Source of the DNA: Fimbriimonadaceae bacterium
Lineage (GTDB): Bacteria; Armatimonadota; Fimbriimonadia; Fimbriimonadales; Fimbriimonadaceae
Direction: 5' to 3'
DNA length: 64,000 nt
NCBI GenBank assembly: GCA_022843485.1
Contig: JALHNM010000009.1
Coordinates: 1 to 64,000, forward strand
Shown: positions 42,410-56,807 of the stretch, piece after piece
How positions within the stretch are numbered: position 1 is the first letter of the stretch
Layout: each line of letters opens with the position of its first letter
Program-made: the position numbers and the translations under genes
Notes under the pieces: model-generated
The model's database searches: none
What the model saw: the letters and a program-made list of their open reading frames with translations, nothing else
Told to the model about the DNA's origin: nothing

Positions 42410-43467
42410 TTGAGGCCCTCCATGAGGGTGGCCGCGGCCCGGCGGGGGGTGAGCCGGTGCTCGCGGACGGCGGCGGCGAGGTCGGCGCGACGGGCCTGAA
42501 CGGCGGAATCTCCGAACCATCTCGACTCGACCGCTTGGCGCACGAGCTCGTCCATCCAGGCGACGGCTTGCTCGGCACGCCTGGCGAGGAACCGGCCCTC
42601 GCGTCGAGAGCGGTCGAGGAAGCCCTCAACGGCGGCCCATACCTCGGCGACGCCGTCGCCCGTCAGCGCCGAACAGACCGTCGTCGCGGGTCGCCCCTCG
42701 GGCCCGAAGGCCATGAGTCGGAGGGCGGACTCGGCCTGAGCCCGGGTCGCCTCCGCTCGCTGGAGGTTGTCACCGTCGCACTTGGTCACACTCAGAACGT
42801 CCGCCGTCTCCATCACACCCCGCTTGATACCCTGCAATTCGTCGCCCGATCCAGGCAGGAGCAGGAGGAGGAAGGCATCGACCATCCGACGCACCGCGAC
42901 TTCGGACTGGCCGACCCCGACAGTCTCGATCAAGACCACGTCGAAACCGGCCGCCGCGCAGAGTTGGGCGGCCTCCCGAGTACGGTGCGCGACGCCGCCG
43001 AGGGCCCCCGAGGTCGGGGAAGGCCGGACGAACGCGCGGGGGTCGCTCGCCAATCGGGCCATACGGCTCTTGTCGCCGAGGATGCTGCCCCGGGTGGACT
43101 CGCTCGTCGGATCGACGGCGAGCACGGCCAGCCGGTGCCCGTCCTCGACCAGCCTCATCCCGAGGGTCTCGATGAACGTGCTCTTGCCGACCCCCGGCAC
43201 GCCGGTGACGCCGACTCGGACGTGGTCCGGTTCGTGCTCGAGTGCGAGGTCGAGCAGACGTCCCGCGAGCTCTTGGTCTTCCTGCCGTGCGCTTTCGACG
43301 AGCGTGATCGACCGGGCGAGGGCGCGGCGGTTCCCAGCGGCGAGGGACTCGAACAGCAGCTCGGGGTCGGGGAGCGGGTCGGGGGGCGGGGGCCGGAAGT
43401 TAGGGTTGAACGCCCCCGGCACGGGCACTCCTGGCTGGACGTGGGGGGTCGTCCCAGGTTCGGTCAC
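42406..43467 (-). CDS. meaB: MeaB/ArgK-type GTPase (353 aa)
   Basis: G3E-related P-loop GTPase that protects and loads cobalamin in methylmalonyl-CoA mutase. The P-loop is GVTGVPGVGKSTF; AVDPTSESTRGSILGDKSRM, VLIETVGVGQSE and SVTKCDGDN are the other nucleotide motifs. The first ~30 residues are Pro-rich and unusual. No mutase gene is in the window, so its client must be elsewhere. It starts at GTG 43467, overlapping the folP stop as GTGA, and ends overlapping the hydrolase start. Confidence 0.92.
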   Translation of the reverse strand: MTEPGTTPHVQPGVPVPGAFNPNFRPPPPDPLPDPELLFESLAAGNRRALARSITLVESARQEDQELAGRLLDLALEHEPDHVRVGVTGVPGVGKSTFIETLGMRLVEDGHRLAVLAVDPTSESTRGSILGDKSRMARLASDPRAFVRPSPTSGALGGVAHRTREAAQLCAAAGFDVVLIETVGVGQSEVAVRRMVDAFLLLLLPGSGDELQGIKRGVMETADVLSVTKCDGDNLQRAEATRAQAESALRLMAFGPEGRPATTVCSALTGDGVAEVWAAVEGFLDRSRREGRFLARRAEQAVAWMDELVRQAVESRWFGDSAVQARRADLAAAVREHRLTPRRAAATLMEGLK

Positions 43468-53299: not shown

Positions 53300-54097
53300 T
53301 CAACGCTTCGTGAAGGATCGTAGTAGAAGCCAAGCCCCCACTGCAAGCTGAATGGCGATGAGCGAGATTGCGAGGGCCGGGTGCGTCTGGGTGAGTTGTG
53401 CCGCGGTCGGGAGGCCGACGACGGCAAGGACGATCACGATCCAGGCCGAAATGAAGGGCTTGACGTATCCCTTTCCTAGCCAGCGTCCTCTGACAAGATC
53501 CTTCAAGTAGGGTCGTCCGCAGTGGCCGCAATCGAGGCTGCCCAGGTCGTTCGTTCGCCCACAATGGGGACAAGGCGTGGGGTTCATCGCTGCGTGCGGT
53601 AACGGGTTGCTCCGCCAGACCCGGTAGGTTTGGTGTTCCTGCCGAAAGTGAGACTCAGGCATGGACGGAAGGACCCTGCTTAGAAGCGCGAGACCATGCC
53701 CTGGAAACCCTCGATCGTAGACCAGGACGGCCATACGATAGATGGCATAAACGTTGTCGGGGCGAAGACGGGCAGTCTCATCCAGCTTCTCCAACTGCTC
53801 AAAGTCAAGAGCATTCAGTGCCGTTCGGTGAGCCACGGCCTTATAGACAGGGAAAAGGATGATAGTCAGGAGGATGGCGAGGAAGGAAAGGATGCCGAGG
53901 TGTGGTGCTGGAGGCACAATCGTCAAGTACCCAAGCGTGAGGCCGACACCAACCGCAAGGATCCCTGGCCCAGTCTCGATCTCGCCTGCGACGATCCATC
54001 CGATAACGGCGATCATCCATATGGCGAGGGGAACCCAAACGACGCAGGCGGCGAGGGCACCGAGAGGACTTTCGATGACTCGGTCTTGGAAGTTCAA
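53300..54097 (-). CDS. Membrane protein with central zinc ribbon (265 aa)
   Basis: Not recognised. Three or so transmembrane helices near the N terminus and two near the C terminus (AWIVIVLAVVGLPTAAQL and AISLIAIQLAVGAWLLL) surround a cytoplasmic part containing PCPHCGRTNDLGSLDCGHCGRPY, a four-cysteine zinc ribbon. A helical segment before it (FEQLEKLDETARLRPDNVYAIYRMAVLVY) is TPR-like. It starts at TTG 54097, overlapping the plsY stop as TTGA. Its position between plsY and the lpt genes suggests an envelope role. Confidence 0.6.
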   Translation of the reverse strand: MNFQDRVIESPLGALAACVVWVPLAIWMIAVIGWIVAGEIETGPGILAVGVGLTLGYLTIVPPAPHLGILSFLAILLTIILFPVYKAVAHRTALNALDFEQLEKLDETARLRPDNVYAIYRMAVLVYDRGFPGHGLALLSRVLPSMPESHFRQEHQTYRVWRSNPLPHAAMNPTPCPHCGRTNDLGSLDCGHCGRPYLKDLVRGRWLGKGYVKPFISAWIVIVLAVVGLPTAAQLTQTHPALAISLIAIQLAVGAWLLLRSFTKR

Positions 54098-54759
54098 GGG
54101 GCCTCCTTAGTGGCCGTTGCCTCGGTCTGGCTAGAATCTGCGTTCGCACCGAAACGGAGGGGCTTCTCCTGTCCTTTGAGCAAGCGGCCGATGTTCTCGC
54201 GATGCTTCCAGAACACGTAAGCGACAAGTACGCCGTAGACCCATAGAAAGAGTGGGCTCTGCTTCGTGACGTAGCCTGCGACGAGTACGAGAGTAGCTCC
54301 CACTAAACTCGCAAGACTGACTATGCGTGTCGGCAAGAATAGGATTATGAAGCCAGAGAAACCGGCGACTCCGACAACGGGGGCAGTGCCGAGGAGCGCC
54401 CCCAGGCCGGTCGCTATCCCCTTGCCCCCGCGAAACCGCAAGAACGGAGAGAGGGAGTGCCCGATCACGGCAAGCGATCCCAGGAAGAGTGAGTGGTCCC
54501 GAGCGTCGAGGCTCCAGATGGATGGTGATTGAGAGGCGAACCAGAGCCCGCCGAGCGCAGCAGGAACGGTCCCCTTGACGACGTCGAGCAGGAACACGAA
54601 GACCCCGAGTTTCGGTCCCAAGGCGCGAGCCACGTTAGTCGCACCAGGGTTACCGCTCCCGAATGACAAGAGATCCACCCCTTTCGCACGGGCGACGAGC
54701 ACGCCGAACGGAATCGAGCCGACAAGGTAAGCGGTGAAGTACAGAAGGACTGGGATCAA
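54094..54759 (-). CDS. plsY: Glycerol-3-phosphate acyltransferase (221 aa)
   Basis: Transfers the acyl group from acyl-phosphate to glycerol-3-phosphate in the first membrane step of phospholipid synthesis. Characteristic motifs are YLVGSIPFGVL, FGSGNPGATNVARALG, LLDVVKGTVPA and RFRGGKGIATGLGALLG. Multi-pass topology and length are normal. It starts at TTG 54759 with a clear GAGGAGA ribosome site four bases before it, one of the few strong sites inside an operon here. Confidence 0.93.
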   Translation of the reverse strand: MIPVLLYFTAYLVGSIPFGVLVARAKGVDLLSFGSGNPGATNVARALGPKLGVFVFLLDVVKGTVPAALGGLWFASQSPSIWSLDARDHSLFLGSLAVIGHSLSPFLRFRGGKGIATGLGALLGTAPVVGVAGFSGFIILFLPTRIVSLASLVGATLVLVAGYVTKQSPLFLWVYGVLVAYVFWKHRENIGRLLKGQEKPLRFGANADSSQTEATATKEAP

Positions 54760-54768
54760 GGTCTCTCC

Positions 54769-56046
54769 TCAGTGTAGACGTTGGATCCCTTCCTGAAAGA
54801 TCGAGTGTGTCACGTCGCGGTACCCTTCGAACGCTGCCAAGAACCCGTTGCCTTCCGTCATGCCAAAGGATTCAGCCAGTCGGGCGAGTTTATCCGGGTT
54901 CTCGGGGACCACGTCGTCCGGACAGCCCAGGAGGGCCAGGCGAGCCTGAGTCTCGGTCAAGAACCGCCAGGCGTCTTCCAGGGCTTCGCGCTCAATAGGG
55001 CTCAGGAAGCCCGCATCGCGTAAGGCGAGGAGGCGGTCGGGAGTCCGGAGCGGCCGGGCGATCACCGGTGACCTAAGGAGGGCCAGATCGATCAGCCAGT
55101 CCAATTCGTGCAGGTTCACATGCCGACGACGGTATTGAACGGCGAGCGAAGCGTCCTGATGACGCTTGAGGTGGAGCCAGTCGTCCAAGGGCCGAGTGGA
55201 GGGCGCGAGGTACGGGCCAAGGTCCACCGGCTTGCCAGCCAAGACGGCGCTCCGAGCGAGTGCGAGGCAGAGTCGTTCCTCGGTTTCCGGCCCCGGCATG
55301 GGTGGTGGGCCCGCCAGCCAGGCAGTGAGTCCTCCGCCGCCCGCTTCGACCCTGGTGAGAGACCGTACCCCCTCGCTCGCCAGTGCGCTCGGCAGCTCGT
55401 CCCAGCCGCCTCCCGCGCTGGCCACTGCGATTTCGGCCGGGCAGAGCGGGAGCGCCTCATCCGCCGCAAAGCGCCCGACTGCGATCAAGGTCCCTCCCTC
55501 CTTGCTGGCCGAAAGGGCACGACGGAGCGAAGCCGAGTACTCAGCGGCGAGGTCGAAGGAGGGGTCGAGAGCCCACGTCGCCGTCCGCAAGGTCCAGCCC
55601 CGAGCCGACTCCGGACTGTCGGTCCACTGGGAAAGCCCCGGGACGTCACGGACGAGGAACGGGAACAGTGCGGGCGAGGTGCGGGTGAGTCGCTCTAGGC
55701 GCTGAAGGGCCGGGTTCTTGTCGGCCAGTCGGTCGCCGCCAGTCACCGAGGCCAGGACGCCGCCGAGCAGGCCAGGCGAATGGGCAAAGTGCCGCGCGAC
55801 CTCGGGCGTGAGCCCGGCGACGACCGCGGCCCAGGCCCCACCCCCCTCGGTCGCTTCGAGGGCTGCGAGGGTCTTCAGCGGAGAGGGAACCGTTCGAAGC
55901 CACCGACCGAGGTTGGCTAGCGCTGCGTCCGAGTCGGTGGCGTGACCACACCACGCCTCGACCTTCGAGCCCCATGTCCCCGGCCCGAGCCGGTCGAAGG
56001 CCGCGAGCTCCCGGGTCGCAGCCTCCTGGTCGCGAAAAGTGCTCAG
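54769..56046 (-). CDS. Degenerate GlnE-like protein, probable CTG start (425 aa)
   Basis: Resembles the N-terminal half of glutamine synthetase adenylyltransferase/deadenylylase: early helices with LANLGRWL and VARHFAHSPGLLGGVL, a middle nucleotidyltransferase-like block, then HELDWLIDLALLRSP, PLRTPDRLLALRDAGFLS and EALEDAWRFLTETQARLAL. The catalytic G-GRELN-SSD-D motif is replaced by VGRFAADEALPLCPAEIAVAS, so activity is unlikely. The visible GTG at 55746 cuts the homologous helices. The frame runs unbroken to CTG 56046, which overlaps the nth stop as CTGA. Nothing else in that interval can start. Confidence 0.6.
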   Translation of the reverse strand: MSTFRDQEAATRELAAFDRLGPGTWGSKVEAWCGHATDSDAALANLGRWLRTVPSPLKTLAALEATEGGGAWAAVVAGLTPEVARHFAHSPGLLGGVLASVTGGDRLADKNPALQRLERLTRTSPALFPFLVRDVPGLSQWTDSPESARGWTLRTATWALDPSFDLAAEYSASLRRALSASKEGGTLIAVGRFAADEALPLCPAEIAVASAGGGWDELPSALASEGVRSLTRVEAGGGGLTAWLAGPPPMPGPETEERLCLALARSAVLAGKPVDLGPYLAPSTRPLDDWLHLKRHQDASLAVQYRRRHVNLHELDWLIDLALLRSPVIARPLRTPDRLLALRDAGFLSPIEREALEDAWRFLTETQARLALLGCPDDVVPENPDKLARLAESFGMTEGNGFLAAFEGYRDVTHSIFQEGIQRLH

Positions 56047-56807
56047 GCGGCCCCCCGAACCCTAGCGCTGCTGCGCTTCCGAGCCGCAGCGGCCCTAGCT
56101 TTGTCCGGCCCCACCCGCCGGCGCCAGACGCAAAGGTCTGCGACTGGGCAGACTTTACAGTCCGGGATCGGGGCCCGGCACACCTTGCGACCGTGCTGGA
56201 TGAACGTCGTGTGGAACCGGAACGCGGCCTCGGGTGGGATCATCCGCCTGAGCTCGCGATGGGCGGCCCGCTCGTCCGTCTCGCTTCCGATTAGGCCCAA
56301 ACGCTGGCACACCCGGTACACGTGCGTATCGACCGGGATGGCGGGCTGGCCGAAGGAGAAGCCCATCACGATGGCCGCAGTTTTCGGTCCGACGCCAGGG
56401 AGGGACTCGAGCCATGTGAGCGCGTCGTCGAGGGCCCTCGCCCGGAGCGGCTCGAGCGTGTAACCACCGAACTCGACCCTGATCCGGCCGAGACAGGCCA
56501 CGATCGCCTTTGCCTTCTGGTTCGCCAGCCCCGCCTTCCGTACGACCTCGGCCACCTCTTCCCAACCCGCCGCCTCGACCTCGCCCCAGGAGGGGTACCG
56601 CTCGAGGAGCCGCGTGAAGGCGGGGAACGTGTTAGCGTCCGCCGAGTGTTGGCTCAGGATGCAGCTCACAAGCTCCTCCATGGGGTCGAACCGCGGGATC
56701 TCACGGGTGCGACCGTGGACTCGTTCGAGGGTCTCGAGGACCAGCATTGGATCGACCGAGGGACGGCGGGCGCGGGCCTTTGGACGCCGTCTCACGGGGG
56801 CTGCCAT
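56043..56807 (-). CDS. nth: Endonuclease III (254 aa)
   Basis: DNA glycosylase/AP lyase for oxidised pyrimidines. It has the helix-hairpin-helix LESLPGVGPKTAAIV with the catalytic Lys, the catalytic Asp in PVDTHVYRV, and a [4Fe-4S] site spaced C-x6-C-x2-C-x5-C (CRAPIPDCKVCPVADLC). The extra ~15 basic residues at each end are mild additions. The start is ATG 56807, since upstream frame is antisense to the lipoprotein; TATCCT ends 7 bases before it. Confidence 0.95.
   Translation of the reverse strand: MAAPVRRRPKARARRPSVDPMLVLETLERVHGRTREIPRFDPMEELVSCILSQHSADANTFPAFTRLLERYPSWGEVEAAGWEEVAEVVRKAGLANQKAKAIVACLGRIRVEFGGYTLEPLRARALDDALTWLESLPGVGPKTAAIVMGFSFGQPAIPVDTHVYRVCQRLGLIGSETDERAAHRELRRMIPPEAAFRFHTTFIQHGRKVCRAPIPDCKVCPVADLCVWRRRVGPDKARAAAARKRSSARVRGAA

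Follow-up and report, generated by a model that had tools for sequence, protein, structure and literature searches.

A probable CUG start codon in a GlnE-derived gene overlapping the nth stop codon in a Fimbriimonadaceae bacterium

In Escherichia coli, pcnB and the IF3 gene infC have AUU starts. Rare starts also occur in Staphylococcus aureus, in which infC and ccpN use AUA and cvfC1 uses AUU (PMC13009471). CUG is put at 0.86% of AUG and at 0.024% of bacterial starts, figures quoted in PMC11497404 that agree with the remark in the initial annotation of the present locus that CTG starts are rare in bacteria. Switches to CUG numbered 4 among ~69,000 reconstructed starts (PMC5622118), and a start-codon selection in mycobacteria gave no enrichment of CUG (PMC4633059). 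Re-initiation at overlapping stop and start codons is established in E. coli, where IF2 is required and excess IF3 is inhibitory (PMC2268962). None of the papers searched was found to report an unusual start in glnE.

The window analysed is a 64,000-nucleotide stretch from a Fimbriimonadaceae genome, a 20-contig draft of 2.96 Mb that is 98.8% complete. The genes at the locus are on the minus strand. An nth-like DNA glycosylase gene (56043..56807, ATG at 56807, 254 aa) is followed by a frame with a GlnE profile match (54769..56046; 425 codons plus stop if it starts at CTG) and then by plsY (54094..54759), whose stop codon is part of a TTGA (54097-54094) shared with the next gene. The GlnE-derived frame is closed upstream by an in-frame TAG (56062..56064), after which the minus strand reads GGT TCG GGG GGC CGC CTG AGC ACT TTT CGC GAC CAG GAG, and is open down to TGA 54771-54769. 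Its first ATG, GTG or TTG is a GTG at 55744..55746, codon 106 of the open frame. The run of 104 codons lacking these triplets, which make up ~5% of codons in the window's genes, has a probability of ~0.005 and is unusual, even if possible by chance. The proposed start, CTG at 56044..56046, forms a CTGA stop/start overlap with nth (56043..56046), as nth ends in GCC GCC TGA, with its last codon, GCC, encoding Ala and its TGA at 56045-56043. The initial annotation had described this open frame, the CTGA overlap and NTGA overlaps at other junctions; on the minus-strand reading its coordinates are all correct, and GTGA, ATGA or TTGA occurs at about a dozen junctions, for example at 54097, 53303, 46194, 45649 and 44303. 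On the plus strand, another CTGA flanked by long open frames occurs at 42496; it is probably spurious, as it lies antisense to minus-strand genes that have better support. Because C before TGA is frequent in GC-rich DNA, a CTGA overlap by itself is little proof. What raises the CTG above chance is that its position matches position 1 of the GlnE alignment in relatives.

For this comparison, glnE loci were gathered across Fimbriimonadaceae, and nth and glnE were located in each genome. nth lies immediately upstream of glnE in 39 genomes, and at 21 of these junctions an NTGA overlap is in frame with glnE. The four-base overlap coincides exactly with the first column of the GlnE profile in 11 family genomes, of which 7 have ATGA, 2 GTGA and 1 TTGA, and the window, as the eleventh, CTGA. 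The closest relative of the window protein, at 38–39% identity, is encoded by G001, another species of the genus, and weaker relatives are spread across the family. A scan of genome contigs with the single window protein gave no match, and with the alignment as query it returned only the relatives already known. The G001 junction reads ...GGAGGTGACTCTGGC ATG AGC CAT TTC CGC GAC GAA GAG, in which glnE and the nth stop share ATGA, and the aligned N-termini are LSTFRDQEAAT in the window and MSHFRDEEAAS in G001. The initial annotation had proposed an apparent CTG start, to be checked at the same junction in related genomes, where a start conserved deep within the segment would have spoken against it. 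No such internal start was found; the starts in relatives align with the CTG position, and ATG, GTG or TTG takes the place of CTG, mostly within the same four-base overlap. This alignment supports the reading that the gene probably starts at CTG 56046. CTG itself is not conserved: it occurs in one genome, and G001, the one congener compared, has ATG, which counts against a CTG start. CTGA at the nth stop is also present in G026 and G050, which were rejected as further cases since usual start codons are available nearby.

The segment between CTG and the internal GTG has the properties of coding sequence. The GlnE profile matches 55768-56043 from column 2 onwards with 80.9 bits (E 8e-23), and homology to full GlnE thus starts one codon after the CTG. 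The first 50 residues show 50% identity to G001, which equals the C-terminal 135 residues and exceeds the middle of the protein. Base composition by codon position (0.75/0.62/0.81) is of the coding type and similar to that of the remaining gene. The earlier statement that a start at 55746 would remove a family-aligned part is borne out by these matching residues. The window protein's predicted structure, at a mean pLDDT of 56, had low confidence and was left out of the analysis.

The 16S tail of the genome carries a standard anti-Shine-Dalgarno sequence. GGGGGG at 56051..56056 on the minus strand, 4 bases 5' of the CTG, is Shine-Dalgarno-like; its duplex energy with the anti-Shine-Dalgarno is -9.1 kcal/mol, a value reached by ~5% of random window positions and the best among the in-frame candidates. 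It is therefore a moderate match at a suitable distance from the CTG, while the G001 start has a stronger Shine-Dalgarno of -13.8. Three other in-frame CTGs (relative codons 56, 92 and 97) were rejected, as Shine-Dalgarno pairing is weak at each. The overlap of the start with the upstream stop, conserved as an arrangement among relatives, is of the kind associated with translational coupling. The start region folds strongly, at -33 kcal/mol over 80 bases; with such folding, de novo initiation would be weak and reliance on ribosomes coming from nth is expected. In the proposed mechanism, ribosomes that terminate on the nth TGA would step back by one base and begin again on the overlapping CUG with initiator tRNA, assisted by the G-rich Shine-Dalgarno-like sequence in the nth tail, and the output would be low. 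CUG is a poor start codon, which is a point against this start; if used, it would give little protein. IF3, a factor that selects against start codons of this type, is encoded in the genome; this is a further point against the CTG, and it also led to rejection of IF3 loss as a cause of loose start selection. The IF3 gene (L121; G000, the window genome, contig C4, near 186147) has an ATG shortly 5' of the conserved INERLL and an ATA five codons earlier.

The ancestral junction was probably ATGA (or GTGA/TTGA), with the overlap base later changed to C. In nth this change is synonymous, as the last codon is GCN (Ala), and it alters only the glnE start; selection on nth thus offers no resistance to it. 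The CTG may in turn have been tolerated under relaxed selection, as the product is a GlnE remnant without an adenylyltransferase active site in a genome with a motif-less glutamine synthetase.

The initial label of the protein as GlnE-like holds in that it is GlnE-derived, but it is not an intact GlnE, as both catalytic domains are gone. In an alignment with full GlnE (~880 residues), the 425 residues of the window protein cover, gaps apart, columns 2-93 and 503-880. The protein has no first nucleotidyltransferase domain, and SDxD is gone from the second, which reads VGRFAADEALPLCPAEIAV where the family has GSYAxxExxxxSDxDLxFLV. The helical N- and C-terminal GlnE segments are present. The tyrosine modified by GlnE is held in the DLYELP motif of glutamine synthetase. 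The window genome has one glutamine synthetase, of the type without this motif, whereas the genomes examined with full GlnE have the DLYELP-bearing type. PII was found neither in the window genome nor in G001, G008, G010, G011, G038 and G023, all of which have a reduced GlnE. It is thus probable that the gene no longer performs its known function; it either has a different role or is on its way to being lost. The loss of both nucleotidyltransferase domains, the motif-less glutamine synthetase and the absence of PII make weak expression credible. GlnE is cut to ~390–450 residues in five genomes: G000, G001, G008, G010 and G078 (window 54769-56046; L031, L032, L049, L053). In G000, G001 and G008 the reduced GlnE occurs together with a motif-less glutamine synthetase, and PII is absent; G010 has the adenylylation motif but likewise lacks PII, and G078 has PII and a glutamine synthetase of ambiguous type. 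Natural Nth-GlnE fusions in one open frame were also observed in two genera, with 644 codons in G011 (L057), 644 in G038 (L120) and 565 in G023 (L061).

glnE starts were surveyed across the family with nth, plsY and a mannose-1-phosphate guanylyltransferase-like gene of the relatives as controls. In 64 scorable genomes, glnE starts comprised 27 ATG, 16 GTG and 14 TTG, counts that are approximate as starts were assigned automatically and related genomes are non-independent. The ATG share of glnE (27/64) is below that of plsY (41/54; Fisher p = 0.0003) and that of the mannose-1-phosphate guanylyltransferase-like gene (30/30). No usual start is present at or before the conserved region in 4 of 72 glnE frames, compared with none of ~126 control genes (p = 0.017); counted by lineage, the figure is 3/72 (p = 0.047). 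One plsY flagged as lacking a usual start proved on inspection to be an alignment artefact. Besides the window gene, the glnE frames concerned are those of G046 and G058, and of G056, with its sister G062. G046 and G058 belong to the same genus, are ~90% identical in DNA, and have full-length glnE genes (L047 and L102) with no ATG, GTG or TTG before codons 109 and 66, respectively; there an in-frame nth TGA is followed by GAG GCC.CG CCT ATC GCC GAA GCC ACC CCG TTC. In G056 and G062 (L114 and L113, ~93% identical), GGGAGAGGGTAA A.C ATC GAC TCA stands ahead of the conserved part of glnE, and the next usual start of G056 is codon 33, within the conserved region. From these sequences, ATC is the likely glnE start in both lineages. 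Readthrough of the nth TGA is a serious alternative in G046 and G058, and a TTG three codons further on is a possible one in G062. We tentatively suggest that the Fimbriimonadaceae glnE start has been repeatedly driven below the ATG/GTG/TTG set, to CUG in the window and to AUC in two lineages with intact GlnE, in each of which both species have this codon, by selection for weak or regulated initiation, infC-like and coupled to nth where the genes abut; at present this is one possibility and not the expected outcome.

As the GlnE remnant is degenerate, selection on its start codon may have been relaxed, which is a credible rival to the use of the CTG. The gene would then be decaying, with its ATG lost, the remnant made negligibly or not at all, and the CTG a mutated and unused codon. 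The lost catalytic domains and the absence of both PII and a substrate-type glutamine synthetase agree with decay, as do the many other family genomes that have no full GlnE or pieces of it only. On the other hand, the 425-codon frame is intact, free of frameshifts and stops, despite only 39% identity to G001; its N-terminus is conserved as well as the rest, and G008 also retains the remnant, as do three more genomes in which it is joined to nth. Decay is thus to be taken seriously but is not the reading we expect to hold.

A base error, by which the true base at 56046 would be A, G or T, is unlikely. A single base decides the start codon in a draft and probably metagenome-derived assembly of 20 contigs, and G001 has A at this position. 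However, there is no homopolymer at 56046 itself and GCC is an ordinary Ala codon at the end of nth; moreover, the missing usual start is common to two genomes in each of two other lineages, so that such a start is not always an error. A separate start would also be unneeded if a -1 frameshift in the six-G run of the nth tail (CGG GGG GCC) produced an Nth-GlnE fusion. This run, the only slippery one of the overlap, lies within an 18-base stretch open in both frames, and single-frame fusions of Nth with a GlnE remnant exist in G011, G038 and G023. The six G residues, though, do not form a tandem slippery heptamer, and the G001 junction has no G6 run but a strong Shine-Dalgarno and an ATG. In the natural fusions the GlnE part is a C-terminal remnant without the N-terminal segment that the window protein keeps, and frameshifting is thus quite improbable. 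Finally, translation from GTG 55746 into a 325-residue protein, even though this is the first usual start codon of the frame, is so very unlikely that it can be set aside, as it drops the profile-matched, conserved, coding-type N-terminal segment of 100 residues, has a weak and badly placed Shine-Dalgarno (-5.0 kcal/mol), and has no counterpart at that position among the relatives examined.

With the CTG at 56046 as the preferred start, the GlnE-derived gene is a probable example of a known but rare phenomenon. The repeated weakness of glnE starts in the family is more interesting than the single CTG codon; with more than half of its starts non-ATG and three lineages without a usual start, the family would be a test case for weak-start selection. 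The common gene callers accept ATG, GTG and TTG only, and a gene of this kind would therefore be annotated ~100 residues short or misplaced. The locus also provides a comparative criterion for such starts, in which the codon position is fixed by the upstream stop and by orthologues, and it indicates that an overlap constraint can alter a start codon through a change that is synonymous in the upstream gene.

When compared to the GlnE adenylyltransferase/deadenylylase, the window protein is homologous over ~93 N-terminal and ~375 C-terminal columns, and its gene lies downstream of nth as in many relatives. In contrast, it has 425 instead of ~880 residues, both nucleotidyltransferase cores are missing or ruined, and the partner glutamine synthetase of its genome lacks the target motif, with no PII. 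Similar to infC, pcnB, ccpN and cvfC1, it would have a rare start codon that lowers initiation and is recognised with Shine-Dalgarno help. However, those genes retain AU and have the same codon in different species, whereas the window has CUG in one species and in a stop/start overlap. The operon NTGA overlap resembles established translational coupling (PMC2268962), and relatives use ATGA, GTGA and TTGA; the overlap codon in the window is CTG instead, and the coupling here is putative, as read from sequence. Like the other bacterial CUG starts, the window CUG would be derived from an AUG-type ancestor. In contrast to them, the change in the window is tied to the nth stop codon, and related genomes directly show the ancestral state.
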